The notes under the pieces were generated by a model. That model made no database searches. It was not told the DNA's origin and worked only from the letters and a program-made list of their open reading frames with translations. From Nymphaea colorata (Eukaryota; Streptophyta; Magnoliopsida; Nymphaeales; Nymphaeaceae): a DNA stretch of 64,000 nucleotides. The stretch spans positions 6,994,608 through 7,058,607 of the forward strand of contig NC_045142.1 of assembly GCF_008831285.2 (NCBI RefSeq). The letters run 5' to 3'. A program made the position numbers and the translations under genes. Below are positions 2,624 through 62,412 of the stretch, one piece after another (the first letter of the stretch is position 1; every line of letters begins with the position of its first letter).

Positions 2624-5600
2624 ATGAGTGAAGAGGGAGAACGATTGTGCCCCTTGTGCACAGAGGAGATGGACATGACCGATCAGCAGCTTAAGCCGTG
2701 TAAATGCGGCTATGAGGTCTGAATGTTTATCATCAATTCTGATATTGTATAATGTATATGTTGACAATGACAATTTCAGCCACTTTCTAACCTTTGAACT
2801 TGTTCGTTTATGACAACAACCAGCTTGTGTCTCTTTTCTATGTGTTCTAATGCTCCAATTTGATTTCTCTATTTCTTTTTATGAACTTGATAAAATTGAA
2901 TACATTATCGATTGCAGTATCTATATCCATGTGAAATTTTAGATGCTGTCATCATGCTATAAAGTATGAACCAATATTTCTTGTCTGGTTGTTTTTATAA
3001 CTTATCTTTGGCATGTAAGTTTTTACTTTTGACCTAATCTTGTTTATGTAAGATTTCGTTTACCACCTTCTAGGTATGTATTTTTAGCTTTACATGTCTA
3101 TTTATGTTTTCCAAGTGAGTTTTTAATTGGCTAATTGATGAAGTCTCTAAGTGGAACTTTGCTGGTCCTTGTAATTGTTTTTCTCACTTCTCTTGGTTAT
3201 GCATTTGACATTTTATTGAGAAATGTCAGGTTTATCCTTAATATCCTTAATATCCTTGCCCTTTATTTGTTTTTAACAACAGATATGCGTTTGGTGTTGG
3301 AACCATATCATGGATATGGCAGAGAAGGATGAAAGTGAAGGGAGATGTCCTGCTTGTCGAACACCTTATGACAAGGAGAAAATTGTTGGAGCGACTGTCA
3401 ACTGTGAAAGGTATATCCTGAATATGGCAGAAAATTATGTGTCTTTACATGCCTTACTTTGATCCTTTGTCTTTTCTCCTGTGCTTGGTATAGTTGATGG
3501 CTAGGAAGGAAGAATTTTCCTGCTAATGGTTCTTTGTAGCTTTAACTTTCAAAAACTTTGTCATGTCTGCATGATTCAGATGGTCTGGCCTTTTCTCCTC
3601 TACTGGATACTATTGATACTTAGTAGGAGTGGGACAAACTTTATGCAGCTGCCAGTTATAGTAATTTTTTTTCCTTTTCAAATGTTGCTTGTGATAGACT
3701 AATAGCGTGTAACTTTTGATCTTGCCTCGTGTTTGATCAGGTTGGCGGAGATGAATTGTGATAGAAGACAGAAAATGCAGAAGTCAAAGACTAAAGCATC
3801 TGAAGGCCGTAAACATCTTAGCAATGTTCGAGTGATTCAGAGAAACCTGGTGTATGTTGTTGGAATACCTCCTAATTTGGCAGATGAAGAGGTATATGTA
3901 CAAACTGACCTAGTGTTTTTTTCTTTATCCTATTGTTCAATAGCCTGTGGCTCATCTGGAGTCCCAAGTGCGCTGTTTAAGGTAGATTTTCTGGAGGTGA
4001 TCAGTGACACAGATATTATCATGATGTTGATGGATTTTATCAATTTGTCCAGGTTCTTGAGAGGAAAGAATATTTTGGTCAGTATGGGAAGGTTCTGAAG
4101 GTGTCTATTTCTCGAACTTCAGCTGGTGTTCCACATACTACTAACAATACTTTTAGTGTGTAAGTTGGTTTAGCATTATTGTGCGTCAATTCTAGTTTTT
4201 GTTGTAATTTTGCTGTCATGGGTGCTGCTTGGTGGATTAATTTGGAATCAAAATCTGAACCGAGGGAATCCATTGTCATTTCATTTCCTTTTTAATTTGT
4301 TCAAGCAGCATTGCCTCTTTTATTTTCTGTATTTGTCCTTTGATTGATGGTGTTACCAAGTTCTTTTTGATTTTTTTGTCTTCTAGATATATTACTTATA
4401 CAAAAGAAGAGGAGGCAGTTCGATGTATTCAAGCAGTAAATGGTTTTGTGTTAGAAGGAAGGCCTTTGAGGTGAACTACGCCCTCTTCATTATTTTGACC
4501 TTTAAAATGATTGGACAGAAAATGGTTTAAACGAGACATCTAATTGCTTTCTTGAATACATAATGCTTGCTTTACAGGGCACATTATGGAACTACAAAAT
4601 ATTGCCATGCATGGCTAAAGAACATGGTACGTCATGGTTGTAATTTGGAAGTCTTTGTTTCATGATTGTTAGACTGTGTTTCACTTATTCAAAGCATATT
4701 ATTCTTTCCCTTCCAGCCATGTAGCAATCCAGAATGTTTGTATTTGCATGATGTTGGAACTCAGGAAGATAGCTTTACAAAAGATGAGGTTATATCACCT
4801 TGCATCAGGTACAATGAATTTTATCCGTCTGTTTGATTGTTTCTGGCATGTCATTTTTCACAACATTCTCAATGCACAACGTAATGGTTAGAAACTGCAT
4901 AAATGCTGGATAATTTTTGAGCCATCTGAACAGAAAAATGTGTTTTGGGACTGTTTTTGTTCTTTATATTATAAACTTGCCAAAACTCATTGGGCTTTCA
5001 TGGGCTTGCCTGTTCGAGTTGGCTTGAGACCATAAAAAAGAGAGGGTGACCAAAAATTAAGCTATCTCAGCCTGATTGGTAATCAAGCCTCTTGGCCCTG
5101 GCCTGGTAACAAAATTCAACAGGCAGATGCTGGTGAAGCGGCGCAGCTCTAGCCTACTAAGGGCTGGGCCTGCATTTTTTCTGAACTTTCTATTGAAATG
5201 CATGGCTGCTTCGCCAACACCATATAAACTGATGCCTAAGTGCTTAACTTTAGAATGTGTAGAACTGTTGCACATTATAGATTTCATGTTTTACGATCAC
5301 AAATATTAATTTCTCTTGTTATACTCCCGTAGTTGTTTGCTTTGCCCTTTCCAAGTGTTTGCTTGATTTCTTCGGCATACATGTTTGATTCATTCTCTGT
5401 TTTGGCTGGAATGCGACTCTAGATATGATTTGTCATGCTGACATGTTAAGTTAGAAATACCAGGTTCTGCATCATTTCAGTTTGATACTTTGATTGAATG
5501 TTAAAAGATAATGTCAGAACTATTTGTATCACTAGAGGTTTTCATTATGTGTTTTTTATGTAAGCGCGTGTGAAAGTAGAAGCCTAGATTATTTTGTAGG

Positions 5601-28886: not shown

Positions 28887-31059
28887 CTAGTCACAAAGAG
28901 ATGTATAATGGAACTCGATCTGCAGACGACGATGCAACATGTCTTCCCTGACTAATCCCTTTTTCATGTCAACTTGCAGTTCCCTCAGAGGCAAGGCTGC
29001 CAAAAACTTCTTGATAAATGCTTTGCAGGAAGTCCGTCCTTGGCTTATGATCTCCCTAACTAAATCTGCATCTTTTTCTGCCTTGGCTTGGTCTGAGGCA
29101 CTGTCACTTGTGTCCTGCAACTCCCTGTCAGGATTGCCTGGCTGCAATCCATAGACTGTTGTATCCTTGTCAAACTTCAACATGAAAGCTTGGTTGCAGC
29201 CCTCGTGTAGTCTTTCCCCAAGTGTGTCAATCAAGTAAATAGTCTCCATTTCCACTTTCAGGAGGAAAAAATGATCATTCCAGCTAACAATGTAAACACT
29301 CCCTTCAGGTCCAACGTTATTGACAAGTTCTTCCCATATACTGTCAAAGCTCATTGCCCCCTCCAGAAAATCGAAGGTCTCTGTCATGTCATCTGGCACA
29401 AAGAATCCAATATATGACATTTCTGAAACAACTGAGAGCGGGCGCACTTTTGCTTCAAGGACAGTGTCAATATCGAAGTGCTTGTCCGAGAACCTCTCCA
29501 TGTGAGTCTCATTTTCACAGAGCTTTCTCCACTCCAATGATCCTTCTCTTATCAACTGGTCAAATTGGCATTTCAGAGGCAGAGTCTCTTTGTTCCTGTG
29601 AAGCCAATCAGCTATAACAGCAACAAGAACAGCACAGGCACCATCTCCGGCTACCTTCTCGCTGCACTGATCGACTGATGCGAAGAAGGTACTCGTGAAC
29701 AGTTCCGACTGCCCATCCCTGCTAACCAGTAGTTTCTTTTCCCAAGATCCAACCTCAAAGGAATTATCATCATCAAATCCTGATGTTGGGGAAGGGATTT
29801 TACTTGGGCTTGATGATGCTGATTGCTGATTTGGTTGATTACGCCGATCATCGTCGATATCATCACCGCCATGTTCGCAGTCCTTCTTAAGTAATGGTAT
29901 ACCTTTGTGTCGGTAAGACCCTCTGAAACTTGCGGTTTTCCATGAAAGGAGGTTGAAGAGCGTAGCCCTTGGAGCAGTTTGACAATCAGAGGCTGATGTA
30001 GGACCTTCCCGGCTTTCGATCCTGTCGCCTTCCTGATTTCTGATTTGTATTCCGACCAAAAGATTTGTTTCGGCTATGTTGCCATAACCAAATTCAGGCT
30101 CCTCTTCGGATGAAGAAGAAGATGACGATTCAGTACCTGTAAGTTCCTTCGACTGCTCCGGGGTGAATCTGCAGTCGCTGGTCCCATCATACTCTGAAGA
30201 ATTTTGTTTCTCTGCTTCACGTTCAATTGCTTTAGCCATTTCCTTCCCCCGTGAAATCACAAATTGAGACCCATCGTCGATTTGGGAAAGACCTTTGCAC
30301 GATCCGCCGGAGGAGAAAAGAGATTTTGCACGGGTGATCATGGTTCTCCTCTTAGTTTTGATCTCAGACAAAGCAAGCGTCATCTGGAAATTTTGGAGGC
30401 GGCAGATATGTATGAGATCATTTAGAAGGAGAAGGTTACACAAAATGAGAGTGAAGGGAGAGAGAGAGAGAGAGAGAGAGAACTTACCGTCAATTCGGTT
30501 TCCATGGTAGATCCTCCAACATTGCAACAAACTGGAATCTGAATGGTCCTTTTCGAACAATCCAGAGTGACAAACTCTGCCAGGTCCAACATAACTTTGC
30601 CGAGAACTGATGTCCTGCTATCTGAATCTTGAGCCAAACCCTGTCCAATGTGAATATACCAAATTTAAATAATTGCGCAGATTCGGCATAACTCATGAAA
30701 TCACTTTGTTCTCGAATAGCCTTAAAAGATTTACTCACATGAACCTCGAGATGAATGTCCCAACTTGATGAGCATCTCGTGTTCAGAAACTTCAGCTTGC
30801 ATATATGATCAAATGATTCGTTCCAATTAACAGAGCCATCACCTTGAACGCATTGCGTGGCCGTCGTATTTCTAACCGATTTTGACCGGTACCCAGCTCG
30901 ATTTCGCCGTCCTTTCCATTGGATCTGCAATATGATGCTGTAATTCTCCCGTTTCTCGCCGTCGCCGATCGTCAGACCTTTGATGCCATGAACCAAGAGA
31001 TTGAGCTCGAAGCTCCTGTAATTTGCAGATCCAGACCAAGCCTTCAACTTCCTCCCCAT
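28887..31059 (-). CDS. plant NT-C2 (EEIG1/EHBP1 N-terminal C2) domain protein
   Basis: Exons on the minus strand: 31059-30739, 30640-30488, 30383-28887; GT-AG; 1971 nt, 656 aa. Residues about 12-165 form the NT-C2 domain (FELNLLVHGIKGL, VNWNESFDHICKLK, GKVMLDLAEFV, IQIPVCC), a C2 variant linked to membrane or cytoskeletal attachment. Residues about 170-370 are Ser/acidic and probably disordered. A conserved-looking C-terminal domain follows (about 375-650): GDGACAVLVAVIADWL, EWRKLCENE, AMSFDSIWEEL, YIVSWNDHFFLLKVE, IYLIDTLGERL. Plant proteins with this arrangement are annotated as EEIG1/EHBP1 N-terminal-domain proteins of unknown role. The start at 31059 (gtcATGGGG) has good context; an upstream in-frame stretch lacks an ATG. 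C408, H529 and D544 are discussed in the findings. Confidence 0.88.
30458..30480 (-). repeat. (CT)n tract just inside the second intron of the NT-C2 gene
   Basis: On the coding strand the donor GTAAGTT is followed at once by a CT repeat, a pyrimidine tract in an unusual place, at the 5' end of a short (104-base) intron. Confidence 0.9.
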
Positions 31060-32585
31060 GACAATCCTCTGATACAACCTACGAAAACGCCACCGGAAAC
31101 ATAGAATTCTCCTACCACTCTATCTGGTCAAAAGGCAGAGAAGATTGTTCGCCTCCCGGAACTAGAAATCATGGATTTTTCATGTTGGTATCCTCTGTTA
31201 AGACTCCCCTGCGCGAGGAAAAGTCATGGCGTCACCTTGTGAAAGCCGTTGGGGGTCAATTTCCAACTCAGGAAGCAATCCGGAAATTTCTACCCTACTT
31301 CTCGAACCGAAGGAAAATTTCCTGGATAATTGACCTGTTCAAAGAGGTGAAACGGGATTGGTTCCTTACCCTCATATATATCTGCATTCAATGGCAGATC
31401 CTTCCACCTTTTCTTCTATCATCTCCAACAAAATTTCAAAGAGATTAGTGTCTCCCTGTCGTCTAGATTCTGGACAAGGAAGCTGATCATCAATGATGAA
31501 TTGGGTTGTCGAGTTCACCCTCATTTAGAGCCAAATTTGAACCGTTACAGAAAATGGGTCCGACCGCTACAGTAGTCTTTTGCTTTCTTATGGATCACCC
31601 TTGCCCCTGGTTTGGACATTGCCCATTGTTGAGTTCATCATGAGAAAATTTATGATGTTGCCCAGACGTTTGATCTTGCCAATCCGCGTTTCAAGAGCAA
31701 TAATATATTGCACCAACTTGGCTGCCAACTTTTAGAATCACACCTGTCAAGAAACCCCAGAAAAAATTATGATGTTTGGCTTTATATCTCCAGACCGTTG
31801 ATCTCACAGAATTTATGTTCATGATTACCGCATTCATATGATATGCTCAACTTTTAGCAAGAATTTTTCTTTCTAATCTAGAGAGAGATAAAGGGGACAA
31901 CTCATGACAACGTGGATATTTTTGCATGCTTTTCTGTCTTTGACCGGGTATATCAAGTGGGGATAATATTGTGTGTATTTGGTGCAACCAGAATGACTCA
32001 AAGAGTGCTTTTCTTTCAAGAAACTGAGGTTGCTTTCTGAGAAGATTTGGTAATCTAGCTCTTGTTTTCTGCCCTTTTCATTATCATTTATCATCATAGT
32101 TGTTGTTATTGTTATTATTTCTGCATGCTTTTGTGAAAGCGTGGACTTTAGGTTTCCCTTTGCACGTTGAGAGAGGAACCGATCTCTTTCCTCGTCTTTC
32201 TGCAATTTTTTATATTTTCCTGAGAAAGCTCATTCCTGTGGGATGGAAGGCGTTGACCTGAGAAAGGGAATCTGGTGAGAGCAACTTTCGTAGGAAACCG
32301 GCCTTCTGTGATCTTCCGGATTATTTCCTTTATATTTAATTTGATTTTTTTTTTTTGGTGCTGAATGGTTCAAATGATGAGGGTGTCCGTTCCACGGTCT
32401 CCGTGTTGGTTTTCTGATTAGAAACGGTCAAGTTCCTGAGTGGCGTTTGGGGGGAGATGCAGAAGAATAGGAAATTTATTTCGATCCCTTTTTAATATAT
32501 CTTTTGCTCCCTTTTTTTATCGTTTAACGCTGATGGGACAGAGAAAATTACGCATTTTTTTATGTTTTATCTTTCTCAAGCCTCA

Positions 32586-49463: not shown

Positions 49464-52400
49464 CTATTCTAATCTCTGCCGTGTTCTCTTCTTTTGCTTG
49501 TCCTCCTCCCTGTACCGCTCTCGTCGCTCCTCGCGCTGCCGCTTTTTGGCAATGTTCTCTAATTTAGCCTTCTCTGCTTCATACTTCTTCCTCTTCTCTG
49601 CATCCTTGAGCTTCTGCTTCTTCATCTGTAGAAAATAACCAAGGCAAGAAAAAAAAAAACTGCCTCTTAGAAAATGGGAAAATTATTGCTTGTCTTTCTA
49701 TTTCAGGAAAAGTTAGATCTGTAGATTCTATACAAGAGAATCCACAAGAAAAATTACAACTGTCAGAAGGCCCAGAGTCAATATCTGGTGTAGATCCTTC
49801 CAATGCAAGGCTGCTGGGGAGTAGGGTCCCCCCTTCCCGTTTATTATCTAGTGTATAGATCCTTGTTTGCATGATCCAGCCGTCTGCCTAGACCTAGCTC
49901 GCCTATCAAAAAGAGACCAATAAGTATACCTTGTCAGATCTGATTAACCGCAGATGTTGAATGAGTGCATGAGCTCTTCTCTCATGTGGCTCCATGACGA
50001 CTGCCCTCTTCCTTTCAAGAGATGAACGTTTTGGTTGAAGCTTTGGCTTAGTACGGAAAGGAAGTGCCTCTTGAAGTGCCTTGGAAATCCTCAACGGATT
50101 AAACTTCTTTGACTTTCGTTCAATAGGCTGGACAAGTAGCCAAAACATATTAAGATACGCAATACAAAACTAATTTGCTTAATGCAATAAAGGATACATT
50201 CAAACGTCAAACCCAATCAACTTCCATCAACTAGAAAGCGGGGTCTACAAAGCAGAACCTATAACTGATTGCTATTTGGCGAATGCAAGTGCCATATCTA
50301 TGATATTTGCAAAATTGTAAAATTCAAACATTTTGGTCACGACAACCAATTACTTTATATATACAAATTTATTTTCATACAAATTACATGCTGAAACGGA
50401 CCCCAGTTCATGCGCAAACAAGAACCCTAGGTCACAACTGTTAGTTTCATCTCTCGGTTTCTATACAAGAAACAAATTAAATAAAGAAGCTCATTCAATT
50501 GTTAGACATCATACAATCAATAATCCTACGAGATAACAGGAACTTTTCTTGGTCTGAGCTATAACAGAACAAAGACGCAGTACTACTGCAAGTTAGCCCA
50601 GAAATTCGAAGACCTAAAAGCTAGAGATTCATGTTCTAACAAAATCAACTGAGTATTCTCGTCCAAGAGAAAGTACCTTGTAAACTGAATCTTTATTTAA
50701 AGGAACTGGAAGATTGTGATCTCTGCGAAGCTCTGAAACTGTTTTCATACCCCTCCAGGTCTCATCACGTGACTGCAGAGCTGTAGTCACTGGATTGAAG
50801 AAGCATGGGACATCCACTTGAGTCCATGCACGCAAGAAAACAATGTCGCTCATAAGCAGTTTGTCCTCAAATGTGCACCTTGCACACCCTTCTGGAGCAG
50901 GTACTGGTTGGTTATTTTTGTTCCCTTTCTTTGGTACTAGTTTTACAGCCTACAGAGCAGAAAAAGAAAAAAAAAATATTACTGGAAAAGCTAAATAAGA
51001 TTGCTTAAATCAGCCCAAAAAAACAGAGTGGCATGCACATCTAACTCTTCTAGGTGCAATTTTGAACAAAAAGTACGAGAAGCATCAAAAGATGCAGACA
51101 CTGAAAAAGTAAAACTGGAAGAAAGGACTTGATGAAGATCAGAAGGCTAAATACATTTGAAAGACAAGATTGAGAATGGATGTGGAAAGAGAGGGGACAC
51201 GGAGAAAGAAAGGAGACATACTGAAGTTCAAATTTTCATGATTGTTTCTGACAAGAAAATAGCACTGTTATTTTGATAGACAGAGAAAAGAAAGTACCAA
51301 AAGGAAATATGCAGCATCTCACAAACAACTCCTAGGACAAATTCCCAATGTACCTTCTTAACTTGTCCCCTGATGCCACTCACGGTTCTGATGGCTGCAC
51401 CTTCAAACCTAGCTACTTCAAGTGCAGATGTGAACATATCTTTAATAAGCGCCGTCTTCTTAAAAATTTTGAAGGGATAACCAACCAGCTTGATTTTCTT
51501 CATTATGCGGACTGCATGATTAAATTCCAAAACAACTGCTGTTGCAGTAATACGGAAAGATGCCTGCTCATATCATTAGAGTGAACCAAATATAAGCACA
51601 AAAAACGATGCATTAAATATTTTGTCAAGGAAAAAGAGGTGACTGCTTAAAAAATAAATTAAATGAGTCCGGCCAATGGTATTGAGAAGATTCACTAGCC
51701 CTGGAGACCATATATGCAGACCATATTCCACTCTTATTTAACAATTTCAAGCAAGGTGACCAACCATTACAGGCTTAGAGGGTCTTAGGTTTCAGAAGAT
51801 GTACTGAAGAAATAAGCGCTGCAACTTTCCTGTTTACGTATCTTAAAACCTTTTTGTGCTAGAAAGCTTGCATGAAAGAAGTTGTAAACGCTAAAGAATT
51901 GTGGGCAGTGCAAAGCATGCCCTCAGTATCAGCACTGGTGGCAATGATAAGCTAGAGCATTGTCCTTCCTTCACCAAGCATCTTCCCGTCCTAAATCATA
52001 CTTCACCTCTTTAGGAAGATGCACCTCTAACATTTTCAACATGTTTTATTTGATATGGGGGAGCGGGGGACTAGAAGGAAACTGCCAGACCTGACTATTT
52101 GCTACATTTTGGACTGCTACCACTCCAGTATTTGGTGGAGCCAGAGGTCCCCAAAACATTGCCAGACAATGCATATGTTCTGGAGTATACTTCAACATAC
52201 GGTGTCGCCCATTTTGGTCTTCAATGGCATATATGGGCATTGTCTGATAACGTCTCCAACCAACTGAAACGATGATTGGATCTCTTGTTTTCAATATTTT
52301 CTTGTGCCACCTATGCCGCTTCAGTCGAACCTGGATGAAGGAAGAAGTAAACAAAGCTAAGTTTTATATCAGATGGATAGATGCATAGTTCACAAAGGGT

Positions 52401-55400
52401 AAGTAAAATACAAAAGTTTAAATGCAGATCTGCTAAATGCTCCAAACATATCTGAGCAAGACATATTCAAAACTCCAGGCAGCTAAAAGTATCCAAGTGC
52501 AGCAAGCTATTTGTGGAATATAATAGAATTAAGACTTTGCAATTTAGTGTTGCAGATGTAAATCATCGTTCCAGCAGACCAATTTTGTATCTAGCTGGTC
52601 CCTTGTGGTTGTATACTCAAACATCTCAAAGAAAAGGCACATATACAACCATCACCTAGTGATTTATGAATTTTTCTATAAGGCAACTTGATGATTCCAA
52701 ACACTCGTACCTACCAAAAAGGGAAAGAAGGAGAAGAAAAACTTTCAACAACTGAATAGCAGATTCGTAGATGGTCTGCCAGTTGCTCAAGAGTATAAAT
52801 GGCTAAAACCGGTTTGTAAAAATAATGGGCACGTTTGTTTAGATCTTTGTTCACCTTTGCCTCACAGAAGATCACACAACTCAGTTCACGTTTCAGAGTC
52901 TAGGATATGAACACATGTAACTGTAGTAGTGTGGGAAAATAACCTTTTGAATAACAAATACCCATACATGTTGCAACCAAAAAAGAATAAAAAACACTAA
53001 AAAAGAAAAGTTGCATGATGACACAAAGCACATTGGATGAAACACCATTTTCTTTGAGAAACAATAAGTAATTTGGTGCAAAAAAAAAAGCCTTGATCTG
53101 CATTATTTCGACTTAGTTCTGCTTCCTCACTTTTCATAATTTTGGTTTTCCACCTCCCACCTAGAACATCACAGATTGAAGCTCACAAACAGTTAAGTTA
53201 CAAGATCAATTAACTGAAGCAGGAAAATGGTTGACAATTTATAGACACATATTTGATAGGAACAAATATACAGTTTCCTGACCATCAAAAGTAATCATTC
53301 TTACGATATAATTTTCATAATTATCAACAGTATCTGGGAGAAAGTGCTGTAATAAAGATCCATTAGGAAAAATAACTAAAACAAAACTAAAACAAAATAG
53401 ACACCACAAAACTATAAAATGATAATAAAGATATAAAAGAAAACTGTAAAACTTATGGAATTGACCTGCATGTATCCAACACTTTCTTCACCAAGACCAA
53501 GCCCTCCAACTAGGAATGGGTGCCTAGGATCAAAATGATCAACCATCTCAAATGGAACATCATGGATCTCCAACCTTAGGTATGATCCTGTTCTGAAGCC
53601 CTCAATCTCAATACGAGTCAACTCATCCAGATCATTGAGTTCTGCAACATTCATTTGTTTCCGAAGTTCCATCTCCTTTTTCAACTGTGAAACAAGATTC
53701 TTAAAAGTTAAAACTTACATAAACATGAAAGAGACGAGTGACAATCTCAATTTGGATAAGCAAAACTCACCTTGTCAAAATAGCCATCATGTGCTTGGCT
53801 CTGATGGTACTTTAACTTTTTTTTATCGTCCTCATCTTCCGATAGTCCAGAATCATCATATGTAGTTGGACGTTAAGGTACCAAAGGGTAAGTAGAATCG
53901 AGAGCCAATACACAGAACCTTTCACATAGAGTATCAACTTGCAAAGATTCCAACCAGAAAAAGAAGTTGCATCATTCTAATTTCCCATAAAATATTGGCA
54001 ACATGTAAAATTTTCCAGAAAATGACCTAACGTTTAACATAATTATGTAGCTACTATGCAAATTTACAAATTATAACATGTCAATGCAACACAGAGATCA
54101 AGCATAAAGGATGTAAAAAAAATCCTGCTTTCTATGTACCACAGAGTGATAATCAGAAGCAGACTAATTCTAGATAGAGGATATTTGGCATCAAACTGTG
54201 CACGAAGAGCAAGCTTTTTAAGACGGCGTTCTTCTGCCTGGGGGTCAACTTGTTTTGAGTCATCTACATCTTTATCCTCCTTAGGTGGTTCTTCACCTTT
54301 GTACTGTTCACCAGTCTCCAAATCCTCAAAGTCACCATAAACAGAGCCCTCACTGCCTTCATCATCTTGCATCTCCTGACCTCTATGAGAAGCCTTCGAC
54401 CAATCTCCCGTGACAAAGCGATCACGAATGCTTTTAATAGCCTCGTCATTTGACCAATCCGTCAATCGTATGTGAGCAGACCCCCATTTGGAGCAATCTT
54501 CACCATTAACACTGTCAATGTCCAGCTCCGCACCCAGTTTCTGTAGTGAACAAACAGTGACATCTAATCCACAGCTGTTTCCATAAACAGCACCAAAAAA
54601 ATGACAGCAACAGGAATAAAATATGGGATCCAGAAAGAAAGTAATACAATGATATCTGTCTTTCTCACCTTCGTACGTTCACCTTTGGGCCTGAAGAAAT
54701 CTTCATCATCTTCACTTCCTTCACTTTCACTACTTCCAAGTGATTCATTAATAGAAGACCTTGATTTTGCGAGAGGTTGCCCATATACAAGCTGCATTAG
54801 AGTGACATGTTTATTTACAATAGATTTAGAGGCTGATAGATCTTCATGGTCCAAGCCCTCCCCCTTCTCATCTGCCATACAAATCAAAAAGCACCTAAGA
54901 GCTTGACAGGGAATAGCATTCTTAGAATGGCTAATTTTTCATTGAAACAACCAGCAAGATTAGTCCTAAAACAAATACTTAAAAAACACAAACAACAGTA
55001 GACCAGTAAAAGTTCCCTCGTCAGCCTTCACAACCTATTGAGCATCCTCCAATCTAACACCACAAAGTAACTGCACTAATCAGGCACAACCTTAACATCT
55101 AAGTCACATGGGTACAAGTAAGGGGATGTGGGTACGAGTACCGTGATTCTAGAAAATTTGGGTACATGGGTATGGCAGAGCTTATATGTAAATATATATT
55201 TAATAATCCACAAAAATTCTCAAAATTAAAGAAAATGACAGGAAAATATAGAATCTTGGTGGAAGGGAAACACAAAAGGAGGGAAAAAACAAAATTAAAG
55301 AAAAAATTAAGATTGAAAATATAATTTTATATGTTTTAAACTGCAGCCACACCCATGTACCCATGTCGCCGTACCCACTCACCGACAAATCACACATACC

Positions 55401-58400
55401 TGTGTTGACTTATCTTCACAGTATTAACTAACTTGACAGCCTGCCAGTATATGCTAAAAATAGACAATAGAATGGTGACGTACCTTCTGAACTCATCTCT
55501 TCATTGCTTTCTCCAGAAATATCATCATCTGTTGAGGATACATCATCCATGATTTCTTCCTCAGAATCCTGTCACCAACAAAATGTGCTGGGTGTGTTTC
55601 AAGATCTTAAGCAAAACAGACATATATACAGCAGCAAAGCAAAAAAGAAAAGAAAACTGACAGCCTAAATCGCAAACAAGATTATGGATAAAAGACATTT
55701 ACTATGGAGAGCCATGTAACAGCTATATTTCACCAACTGGCTACGGCAGAACCAAGATGATTCTTTGCATGCCATTTCTGCATATGTACTACAAAAACTT
55801 GAAGGCACCTCATGCAGTTTATCAAAAGATGGAGACATCTATGAGAGCTTACCTGCATTTTCAATTTTAAGCAGCCCTATTATCAACGTTTCAAATGAGG
55901 TGAACTGTGTCGCAACTTGCAACAGGAAATTTAACTAAGGACTAACTAAAGACTTAAGCACGCCCAAACTAGTTTGAAACTTTGAATACCAAAACAGTCT
56001 CACCTTGCATTCGCAAAGCTTCACTGACACTATTCAGATAAGCAGAGTCTTTTAAAGCAAAAATTACTCAATTTGCCATCATTACTTTATGAGTCTTGAC
56101 AAGTTTTTATCCTATCGTAAAGGAAGAACAAGATAGTCTACTGTAGAAGCCATACACAAAATTGAACAGTAAACAAGCTTGAGAATTGCTTTGGCAATTT
56201 GCATACAGCCAGATTCTAATTTCAGCATGCTAAATGCAATGTATTCCCCTTTGGTATCTGATATAACAGCATATGGAAATATGCATATGCAATTTGGGCA
56301 TGTGCAGAATTTACCGCACAATTATACCTCATAAAACTTCTGGATGTATGGCATTGAGCATGGCCCACAGCCCCACTATCCTTCCAGGTAGACAGAAGGT
56401 CCACAATATAGGCATTAAATACAACAAAGCAAAATTTTGAAAGACACTAGTACATCTGTACCTTCATCTACAAGACGAACCATAGCTTTCAAGAGCATTT
56501 TTGATAGGGAAGAACTCAACAGATACCTCAGTCTGTGTCGCTCCACATGTTTGATGGTTTACCATGGAATGCATGGCAACACCAAACAGGTGCCCAAGTG
56601 ATTAAATTTTACACAGGCCCCACCACGCTCTCCTGTGCACTGTTTGCATGAGTCTGTAGACACCATCATGGCATTATGCTTTCTCTGTCATGAGAGAAAG
56701 CTAATCAAACAAGCTTTAGACGTACGACCCTTGGCTTTTCCACCACACCATATCCTTTTAATGATATTTTAACCTTAATATTTCTCCCTTTTTCTTTTTG
56801 CTGAGATTCCATGGTTTATACCTTATATCATCGTTCACACCAGTCAGTTCAAAAAAAAAATATCCCAACACAATAATATTACAAAACTGGCATTATCACA
56901 GGAATTTTGTCTCCCTTCATTACCTGAGTATCATTTGCAAACACAACTCTTCTTCTTAATCTTCCATCTTGTATATCAGCTTCCTCTCTGAAATTAGGTG
57001 ATGGTGGCACATGTATCCCATTTTCTTCAGATTCATCCTCACTTTCCTCATCTGAAACATCAAGGTTTTCTTCAATATGTCTCTCCATGTTTGTACCCTC
57101 TCCCTGCCCAGAGGGTTTTGCAGCACCATCCTTGTTCCCCATACCGCCCTCAGTAAAAGCTTGTGAATCACTTGGCAAAGGTGTACTCTCAATTGGTCCT
57201 TTTCCAGCATTACCATCAGAACTGACATTCGGTTTATATGCGGAAGGCCTCGTACCAAAAAGATTAATGAAGCTCTGCTCCAACTTCTCATTAACTGAGT
57301 ACTTTGTATTTTGAAGTGTCTTTACCATCAGTTCACCAACATCATGGTCCCTTGCTGGAAATGGAGACAAACAAAAAATAGGAAACTATCAAAACAGACA
57401 AATTTAATGAAAAAGAAAAAAGAAAAAAAGAAAAAGAAGATACATGGCAGAAGATTTATGCATGTGTTTACCATGGTCCTTGATTGGAATGTCTTTCTCC
57501 CTCTGTATGTGTGTTTGTGTGTGGAGAGAGAAAAAGAGAGCACTAAAATATTTATCAAGTAAAATAGTTATGTGAATGGCTCATCTAATTATGTGAATAG
57601 CTCATCTAATGCATTTTCAAAGAATTGTGTACTACCTTTATCTGTTGTTGAGCTATTTTGCTGATCCATTTTAGAAAACTGTACCATATGATCATTGATG
57701 TTTATGTAAATAGCATCCTTATCATACAGAAGATCCCCAAGATCAGACATAGGTGCATAAAAAAGTTTTTCCCTGTCTCGCAGGCCCTTCTTCTTGGCAG
57801 CGGAAGGCAAAGGACAGGGATCCGCCAAGCACGTAATACTAGCCAAATGGTAATCGCCAACACCAGCAACATGGACCTACATCAAGATGCCAATCAGCCG
57901 TGATAAAATATGAAAGTGTGTGCAAAAGAATCGGACTTACAGCCATTTGACTAAAATTGTTGAGCAGGATAGGAAACGTAGTAAACTTTTAAAATAAATT
58001 GTCACGCAGAGGAAAATCATCTTCATACGAATGCAGAACACCTTATGAGCAACACAATCAATAACATCATAATGCACCAATAATGGGACAGAAAAGATGA
58101 TGTTTTCACTCATTACAATTGAAACAAAAAAGAATTATTTCCCAGAAAAACTCTCATATTATTTAAGTACCATAGTTGATAGTCTCATAATTGGAAGAGC
58201 ACAACCAACATGATTAAAATTTAAACAGCTGTTTCAGCTCCCAGACACTTCTTCCAACTTTTTAGTTTCTCACATACTTCCGTTCAGTAACTAGAAGCAA
58301 AACATGGAGTTAAAAATGAACATAAAAAATTAATCGCCAGGTTTAAGGGCAGAAAATAGCATACCTTTGTTCCCTTCTTCATGTTGCAACCACGCAGGTA

Positions 58401-61400
58401 TCCATATAACGTAATATTTCTATCACATTTTTTATTTGACTGTACTTTTTCTGGAGGAGTCACATCTTCAAAACGGTCGACTAACACATAAGGATGAGTA
58501 GTTCTCCAAGACAAAGGAGGAAATTTCATCACAGAAATAAATCTTGCAAGGTTGTGAATTTCACGTTTCGAATACCTGATAGTAACATTGAATATGCAAT
58601 ATGGTCATGTGAAACACCAGCATTTAAAGATAAAAGAAAGACGAAGACATAAAATCAACTACAAAAAATTCATATGCAACAAAGGTAAGATAAAGTGAAA
58701 GCAACCTACTTTCCATGAATTAGCCCTGATAAATAGAATAACTTTGCTCCATCATATATTTCAGTCCAAAACCGATGCTTTAACTGCTGCTTTGTCTTCC
58801 TTAGTTTCTTCACATCTTTAAATTTATCAAGATGAGTAAGCACTCCCATAACTCTTGGGAAACCATGAACTTGCAAAATGTTAAGAAACTCAAAAGTTTC
58901 CTGCATAAGATGGTTGTCAAAACATTATCAGCTCAACATTGTAAAGCTTCTTAACATTTGATTGGGCAAATAACATATCGAACCAGAACAGCAGGAAACA
59001 ACTCCCAGGAACAAGTAATGTAACCAGAATTTGTTGGAAGCAACAGGTTAACATTGTAAAGCTTCTTAGCATTTGATTGGGCAAATAACATATCAAACCA
59101 GAACAGCAGGAAAAAACTCCCAGGAACAAGTAATGAAACCAGAATTTGTTGGAACCAACAGGTTTCTCCAATTTGAAAAAATTGACAACCTGAGATTTTT
59201 TTTCAACCACTCATTTCCTGTTTCAGCTACATGTATTGTATCAAAGAAGCTTCCAAATGATGGGAATTAAGGATAAGAAACCACAGAAAAATGGCAACAA
59301 GTTGACTGCCTGCTTTCCACTGTCCATACAAAGCAGCAACTCATTGAACATGCTATCAAAAGAAAAGGTCTTCAAGTTCTTGCAGCTAGATGAACCATTT
59401 TCCCTATTTGTCGGCTGTCGCAGAACCTCTTCTTTTAAATAAAACGTACACACATATATAGCTATCTCTATGAACTCAATTTAACCTAAAAAATTCATAG
59501 TTTGAACGCAGACCTGGTTTTCTTTGAAGTTATACAAATCGATAACCAGAAGACCAGCCATAGTAATTAATAACTAATGAATGATTATATCAAAACTTAC
59601 CCAAATTAACCTTAAACCTCTTCAGATAAAAGGTGGAGAGAGAAAACAATTGTATAGTATGCCACAATCACCAATCCACTGTTTATTAAGCATCGTCAAA
59701 CTTATGATACTTTTCTATTTCATTGTCATGGTAGCACGGTTGTGTGTTTGTGCTCTTTTTACTTTTCCTTTCTATTTTTCCCCATGAGGGAGAGGAAGGG
59801 TAGTGGTGTTCACGTTTGTATAGCCAAAAAGATATTCACTGGAACACGTGGTTGAATCATTAATAAAAACAAAGAGATGCATTTCTGAGTAACCAAAGAA
59901 ATTCACATCTTAGTATATAATCATTCAAATGTAGAGGATAAAATGGGGTAAGCCAATCTGGCTCATAATCAGCAGAATGTGGTATTAATGGACTTGTCAT
60001 GAACAAGGTGCATGAGCAGTCTAGTCTCTCCAGATTTAAGGTACTTAGAGTTCATTTTATTAGAAATCAGGTCACCACTAATCACCATCCACCATCTTTA
60101 TAATTACTGAAAAAAATGGAAAAAAGAAACATGTTTTTTCAAAAAATGAAAAAAAAAACCTTTTTTCATTTTTTGAGATTTTTTTCATGTTGTTTAGAGT
60201 TTTGTAATTACCAGATTTTATTTGCACATTTTTTGCATTTCATTTTTAATAATATTTTCGCCACCTTTCTCTTTCTCACCGAAATATTAATTGTCATAAA
60301 GTTAGTCGAATTCTTTCCAAATTTCTCTCCAAAAAAACAACTCTGCCGTTTTAAACCTGAGAAAAACCTCACTGTTTAAAACCCGAAAATGACATTTGTG
60401 GCTATAATTCTTACCATCTCAAACCCATAACTTCCATCGATCAGAAGAAGAGCAACATCAGCAAACTTTGCAGCATCAATCATGCCATTAATATCATTTG
60501 GGCATTCAACAAACTGCAACCGCCTTTGTTTACCTACAGGTGCAAAGGAATTTAGGTTTAATTGCAACCGCTTTCCAAATATCACAATGCATGATAATTA
60601 ATACCCAAGAACAATAGCTAGTCATATAAAAATTCTTAAAAGACCCAAAAGAACAAAAGAACATGCATCCTAACAGAGATTAGAAAGCAATGCTAAGGCA
60701 CCTGACACAATGGTTATCGGACCACGAACATCAGATAAGTTTTGCCTAGTGTAATGTTTTACGAGTGATTTTATCAACAATGACTTGCCAACCTGCAATC
60801 AAACCCATGAAATTTGTTCAGAACTCTACATCATTTAAAGCAAAGCACAAAATAGACCAAACTTCTCAAATACAAATTCATAACCATTTCAAAATCTACA
60901 AAAAGTCACCTACCTTTGGAGGACCATGAACTACAACAACAAATGGTGCTGGTTCACCAGTTGAACGATCAATTGTTGGGACATGGAGCCTTTTCTGTTC
61001 CTTTTCAGATGCACGAGACTGCAGACGTCTAGCTTTAACTGTTGATTTGAAAGCAAATGCCTTCCAAACAAAAGAACAACAGAAAACCAAATAAGCAGCC
61101 ATATCCAGAACCAAATACAGGCTGACCAAAACAAATGCAAGGGAAAATGCAAGGAAAGGCAATATGAGCACCCAGCAGAAAAAAATTCTCTCTGATATAT
61201 CTGGAATTCAACAATAAGGTGCCTTCAGATGGACATGCAATATACAGCTGCAAATTGAAACACTTGTCCAACCCAGTTTTGTACATTTAGTTGCAGCATA
61301 ATTGATACATTGCCTAAATAACTTGGCATTCTCATATATTTTTCTAACTAAGAATGCTGAGTGCTCCTAGCAGACAGAAATTCTGCAATTAAATGAACAT

Positions 61401-62412
61401 GTCATGTCGATTGACTGAAATTGGAACTTTTCATAAACAATTTATTGAAGATATTAGTTTATTGAACACACTTTATTTCAAATTTCCATGATTTTATGGT
61501 GATAGTATTAACAATCATCAACATAGTGATCGCCTGCGCCATCATCATCTTGACCATTATCATGTACTGAAATAAAGGGAAACTATGAAATGTCTTCCAC
61601 CATGTGTGAATCTCCATAAAGGGACAGGGCCATCGTATTGGTGTGATTCCACAAAGCAACTGAAACTACGTGAGAATCAAATGCAAACTTCAGCCATTGT
61701 ATAAATCATATATGCATCAAGAAGATTACCAAAAATGCCAGTGAGAATTAATACAAAGAAGTGCAGAGGGATTAATTTTCTTCAGCCGTCAGCCAAAAAA
61801 AAACTAAAATCTTTGACCGACACTTGCTTCTCCAAATAATAACGAAGAATGCTTGGTTTGAAGGACACCAGACCTCTATCGATGCCCAAAGTAACCATAC
61901 AATCCCAAACAGTGAATGAGTTACAAATAAAATGTGACAGTGATTGAGGCCCACATTTCTTTGAACGCAGTGTGGTCGCAAATTAGCTAATATACATTTC
62001 TGCTCGTATAACTAGAAGTCTCTTCACAATTTTAACAGAAATAAAATGCAATAGAGGTGTTCTCTCACTTGCAATTCAACCGAAAGTTGTAAAATTATCA
62101 ACCTCAGAATCACACTAAGAACAAAAACCATAGCAGGTAGCCGAATTCAATAAACATCCTAAACATGCTCCAATAATTCTCTTTAACACAATTCATGCAC
62201 CAAACATTAAAAGTGGACCCTCCCAACTCTGATCGTAACAAAAGGAAAGCACACAAAAAAAAAAACACACAATAAGGATAACAAACCTTAGGATTTTGCT
62301 TCTCCTCTGATATGCCCCGCTTCTTCTTGTCTGCCTTGTCCTTCTTCTTGGCAGATGGACCCGACTGTCTACTTCTATGAGCCCTATGAGTCTGCTCTGC
62401 TGTAACCCCCAT
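49464..62412 (-). CDS. BMS1: ribosome-biogenesis GTPase BMS1
   Basis: Exons on the minus strand: 62412-62287, 61060-60914, 60792-60702, 60533-60415, 58900-58710, 58575-58365, 57876-57636, 57354-56924, 55568-55484, 54871-54669, 54540-54185, 53861-53771, 53684-53466, 52330-52091, 51563-51354, 50949-50677, 50127-49930, 49625-49464; 3594 nt, 1197 aa, normal for the family. BMS1 is a nucleolar GTPase of the SSU processome that works with Rcl1 in 18S rRNA and 40S assembly. Seen: basic N-terminus ([12 protein letters not shown]), P-loop GPPKVGKS (88-95) split by intron 2, THLD (183-186) in the G4 position, an AARP2CN-type region (about 220-310), long acidic Ser/Glu/Asp segments (about 377-730), the conserved C-terminal domain (about 765-1080: [41 protein letters not shown]), and a Lys/Arg/Glu-rich tail. 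Intron 11 is U12-type AT-AC; the others are GT-AG. Complete. Confidence 0.95.
53862..54184 (-). other. BMS1: U12-type AT-AC intron (BMS1 intron 11)
   Basis: On the coding strand the intron starts ATATCCTC (54184-54177) and ends CAACTAC (last base 53862); length 323 bases. A branch-site match TACCTTAAC lies 10 bases before the 3' end, as the U12 spliceosome requires. The consensus is ATATCCTT and TTCCTTAAC. Removing it joins …GATGCCAA to ATATGATGAT and gives …[13 protein letters not shown]… in frame. No GT-AG pair nearby joins these exons in frame. Confidence 0.88.
55100..55412. mobile_element. MITE relic in BMS1 intron 9
   Basis: The left end TAAGTCACATGGGTAC and, on the other strand, the right end TAAGTCAACACAGGTATG are imperfect inverted repeats, and GGGTAC-rich arms follow on both sides. 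The termini resemble those of the element at 20253-20659, suggesting one family. The flanks (TTAACATC and TCTTCACA) show no target duplication. Confidence 0.55.
58935..59164 (+). repeat. 115-bp tandem duplication in BMS1 intron 4
   Basis: Copy 1 (58935-59049) and copy 2 (59050-59164) are the same length and differ at only a few positions. Both start AACATTGTAAAGCTTCTTA and end CAACAGGTT. Confidence 0.94.
60139..60176. repeat. A/T inverted repeat in BMS1 intron 4
   Basis: TCAAAAAATGAAAAAA (60139-60154) and its exact complement TTTTTTCATTTTTTGA (60161-60176) surround a 6-base loop, a potential intronic hairpin. Confidence 0.85.

Follow-up and report, generated by a model that had tools for sequence, protein, structure and literature searches.

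The question raised by this locus is how exons 11 and 12 of a BMS1 gene of Nymphaea colorata are joined, for which a minor-class AT-AC intron had been proposed in a first-pass annotation of the window (the whole stretch of 64,000 nt analysed here, to which all coordinates refer). The coding part of the gene was modelled as follows:

49464..62412, minus strand: coding part of BMS1, 18 exons, CDS of 3594 nt including the stop codon, 1197 amino acids

With the exception of intron 11, the exon borders in this model are predicted GT-AG sites, picked by hand from the sequence to hold the frame, and the sole stop of the model is the terminal one, leaving the 1197-residue protein unbroken. The best match of the encoded protein in the PDB is human BMS1 (7mq8, E-value 3.3e-293), followed by the Bms1 proteins of Chaetomium and yeast. 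Pfam analysis found RIBIOP_C (E-value 1.5e-88, residues 713–1033) and AARP2CN (E-value 7.3e-28), and the GTPase models GTP_EFTU (25.1 versus 26.5) and Tsr1_G-like stayed below the cut-off. At the level of sequence, the homology along the length of the solved BMS1 proteins and the RIBIOP_C and AARP2CN domains identify the gene as BMS1; compared at the protein level with the human and fungal BMS1 structures (PDB 7mq8, 5oql and 5jpq), the product is a clear homologue. Queries with the BMS1 protein and exon 14 in non-eukaryotic collections gave pattern matches (2 and 6 in viral_contigs, 40 in genome_contigs), none of which was confirmed by tblastn. In addition, intron 4 carries a tandem duplication at 58929-59158, made of two adjoining 115-nt copies that are 94% identical.

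Sixteen of the 17 introns of BMS1 are GT-AG, and intron 11 is AT-AC. The features at and around it are:

54185..54540, minus strand: exon 11, 356 nt, ends GCC AA (gene model)
53862..54184, minus strand: intron 11, AT-AC, predicted U12-type, 323 nt, phase 2, 66.6% A+T
54177..54184, minus strand: putative U12-type 5' splice site ATATCCTC (motif and matrix score)
53872..53880, minus strand: putative U12-type branch site TACCTTAAC, one mismatch to TTCCTTRAC, 10 nt before the intron end
53862..53863, minus strand: terminal AC, the favoured 3' end (gene model, junction scan)
53865..53866, minus strand: proximal AC, an alternative 3' end 3 nt upstream, in frame, yields FDANTYDD
53771..53861, minus strand: exon 12, 91 nt, begins A TAT GAT (gene model)
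54181..54184, minus strand: ATAT repeat, copy 1, at the start of intron 11; makes five junction registers equivalent
53858..53861, minus strand: ATAT repeat, copy 2, the first bases of exon 12
54064..54066, minus strand: in-frame stop upon retention of intron 11, giving a 773-residue product

The coordinates and strand of intron 11, its donor, its branch motif 10 nt from the end and its terminal AC are all as the first-pass annotation had given them, and the frame that it had read across the junction, GCC AA/A TAT GAT, is restored in the unbroken 18-exon model.

From its sequence, intron 11 of BMS1 is very probably a U12-type (minor-class) AT-AC intron. The available part of PMC2426677 describes the U12 signals as the donor ATATCCTT directly at the junction and TCCTTAAC 10–15 bases before the acceptor, and that of PMC5932401 gives the plant U12 branch site as TTCCTTRAY. 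The donor of intron 11 has no mismatch to RTATCCTY and differs from [AG]TATCCTT in its last base (C, not the commoner T), and the 3' portion of the intron reads TACCTTAAC-GTCCAACTAC, where the candidate branch A residues stand 11 and 12 nt from the 3' end and thus inside the branch-to-acceptor optimum of 11–13 nt given for U12-type introns in the excerpt of PMC3584512. Scored with consensus-type U12 matrices, the donor reaches 8.7 of a maximum of 12.0 and the branch 10.1 of a maximum of 14.2, and none of the other 16 introns combines a high donor score with a high branch score. The runner-up branch, that of intron 3 (8.3), goes with a donor of -2.9. Phase 0 is found in 12 of the 16 GT-AG introns and phase 2 in intron 11, the latter fitting the bias of U12-type introns against phase 0 that is reported in the accessible sections of PMC7367187. 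U12-type introns lack a distinct polypyrimidine tract; the pyrimidine content at -25..-4 is 64% in intron 11, inside the range of the other 16 introns (50–91%), and does not set it apart. From knowledge of the class, we infer that ATATCCTC would be recognised by the U11 snRNP with U11-48K and that U12 would base-pair with TACCTTAAC, and U6atac/U4atac.U5 would then carry out both steps, by which GCC AA is joined to A TAT GAT.

Intron 17 (49929-49626) was considered as a second U12 intron and rejected. Its donor GTATACTT is the most U12-like among the 16 GT-AG introns (7.9) and has the central C changed, its branch is weak (the best, TTTCTTGCC, scores only 6.8), and it is a phase 0 intron with AAG before it. 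An Rfam scan of the window gave nothing reaching the gathering score.

Since ATAT opens both intron 11 and exon 12, one and the same mRNA can be written in five equivalent registers, namely AT-AC, TA-CA, AT-AT, TC-TA and CC-AT, which RNA mapping alone cannot separate. None of them is GT-AG or GC-AG, and only one has AT...AC, the register favoured here by its U12 signals as read from the sequence.

Frame-keeping junctions between exons 11 and 12 number 242, comprising 63 AT-AC, 59 AT-AG, 47 GT-AC, 41 GT-AG and 32 GC-AG pairs, where the GT-AG pairs come from 449 scanned and the GC-AG pairs from 285. Only two of the 242, the intron at 54184..53862 and its version with the proximal AC 3 nt away, have a donor and a branch that each deviate from the U12 consensus at no more than one position. 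And only one, the proposed AT-AC junction, produces the motif FDA[KE]YD[DE], in the form of FDAKYDD, for which the human counterpart is FDAEYDE, a pairing made by eye, as the two motifs are not matched up in the phmmer alignment. Another AT-AC pair, 54182..53791, meets the looser FDA[KE]YD, but it was rejected with four mismatches at the donor and four at the branch. In whole-segment alignment against human and Chaetomium BMS1, the proposed junction scored second of the 242, behind an AT-AG pair, and against the human protein only, several GT-AG and GC-AG pairs scored above it. The acidic linker shows little conservation, and candidates with shorter products do as well or better in this alignment, which was therefore dropped as a judge of the junction in favour of the strict motif and the splice signals. 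The claim in the first-pass annotation that there is no usable GT-AG pair is too strong as worded, since 41 such pairs hold the frame; it stands in so far as neither these nor the frame-keeping GC-AG pairs give FDA[KE]YD[DE]. As the best GT-AG pair has a poor acceptor and loses 46 residues, the claim is better read as no good GT-AG pair keeping the conserved residues.

This best pair, with the donor AAG/GTGAAG at 54296 and the acceptor CTATCGGAAG at 53836, would define a U2-type intron of 461 nt (54296..53836) by trimming both exons. It keeps the frame open, its donor scores 7.5 where the median is 7.0, and its summed site score of 8.0 comes near the 8.4 of the lowest real intron (leave-one-out), with matrices trained on the 16 GT-AG introns of BMS1 only. 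However, the acceptor scores 0.5 while the minimum of the 16 real acceptors is 1.8, the 46 residues lost beyond the AT-AC junction include an 11-residue stretch, and the U12 signals would have to be a coincidence, so that we consider this reading very improbable. Just as improbable in our view is a U12-type intron that ends at the proximal AC (53865), alone or as a tandem-acceptor variant, by which one residue would be added (FDANTYDD). The frame would be open here too with donor and branch unchanged, but the branch A residues would come to lie 8-9 nt from the 3' end, which is below the optimum in the cited excerpt of PMC3584512, and the conserved spacing would be lost. Least probable of all is the removal of the AT-AC intron by the major (U2) spliceosome, for although U2-type AT-AC introns are known (making up 0-0.05% of the U2 type across four plants, Table 2 in the accessible part of PMC7367187), the donor of intron 11 has no match to the U2 site (score -3.5) and stands together with a near-complete U12 donor and branch.

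How often the signals of the preferred U12-type intron occur by chance was counted on both strands of the window. An exact RTATCCTY in any of the five registers was found at 70 of 127,760 positions, and a branch motif with at most one mismatch to TTCCTTRAC, 7-20 nt before the junction, at 476 of 127,760. Assuming independence, and with tolerances chosen after the site was seen, the joint chance is about 2e-6 per junction, or 3.5e-5 over 17 introns; a first-order Markov null from intron 11 itself gave about 8e-7 for a single register. RTATCCTY by itself was observed 14 times in the window versus 8.07 expected, a number reached by one of 100 shuffles, and the exact TCCTTAAC twice versus 2.06 expected, neither of them inside intron 11, where ACCTTAAC stands. 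The single motifs are unremarkable in 64 kb; the unusual feature is that both stand together at the junction.

The type of intron predicted here is already known, as AT-AC introns make up 13-26% of the U12-type introns of four plants (Arabidopsis 26%, soybean 23%, rice 22%, maize 13%) in the sections available of PMC7367187; a figure of 4.8% from another study is quoted in the excerpt of PMC5932401. The latter, in the same excerpt, describes intron 4 of CBP20, which has in common with BMS1 intron 11 the AT-AC ends, a TTCCTTRAY-type branch, a similar A+T content (about 65% and 66.6%, respectively) and the position as a single minor intron in a conserved nuclear gene whose other introns are GT-AG. 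According to this excerpt, the CBP20 intron has been studied comparatively in ten plants and experimentally in transgenic plants, whereas that of BMS1, a different gene, is predicted from its sequence. How far U12 positions are conserved between animals and plants is disputed, with 20 shared in 133 human-Arabidopsis gene pairs in the excerpt of PMC2426677 and an opposing count of 8 of 93 in that of PMC7367187. A literature search for BMS1 together with U12 or U12-type intron found no paper; U12 databases and supplements lay outside this search and may already list the intron. The matches to BMS1 with 'minor spliceosome' were irrelevant, BMS1 being in the passages retrieved a reagent catalogue number or part of pseudogene names, and the combination of 'U12 introns', 'rRNA processing' and 'plant' returned none. 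A partial text of PMC6865273 mentions minor-intron genes with ribosome-biogenesis roles in mouse retina, thus this class of minor-intron genes is not new, and BMS1 would join the candidates for genes that need the minor spliceosome to make their mRNA. The junction would also settle the exon structure of BMS1, a gene essential for ribosome assembly, in which a prediction limited to GT-AG sites would probably err. The remark in the first-pass annotation that gene callers would go wrong here agrees with the statement in PMC5716242 that non-canonical splice sites are not satisfactorily handled by ab initio prediction.

If the minor spliceosome failed, intron 11 would be retained and the reading frame truncated. 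With the intron retained, the frame runs for 40 residues from the split codon and stops at 54066, and the resulting 773-residue product is without most of RIBIOP_C (713-1033). Given this stop and the six introns still downstream, the mRNA would probably be degraded or kept in the nucleus. The first-pass annotation had suggested a possible link between small-subunit production and minor-spliceosome activity. In its stronger form, the minor intron of BMS1 would be an old conserved control point, where the capacity of the minor spliceosome determines how much full-length BMS1 is made and hence how fast small subunits are assembled, with the retained transcript truncated and decaying; we regard this as improbable. 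Evidence that the excision of U12-type introns is too fast to affect expression much, presented in the accessible part of PMC7367187, counts against a simple rate-limiting switch. Were the intron both conserved and rate-limiting, ribosome production would be tied to minor splicing.

Other candidate genes were noted in the window. On the plus strand, exons at 3300-4170 presumably belong to a gene for the CCR4-NOT subunit CNOT4, which their products resemble (RCPACRTPYDKEKIVG and NVRVIQRNLVYVVG). In the intron upstream of these CNOT4-like exons, two copies of ATATCCTT stand 9 nt apart (3241 and 3250); no role was seen for them, and the pair looks like chance and was set aside. Furthermore, an open frame on the minus strand (30490-31119) has a weak match to the Pfam family NT-C2 below the cut-off (E-value 5.8e-4, 20.0 versus 25.2 bits).
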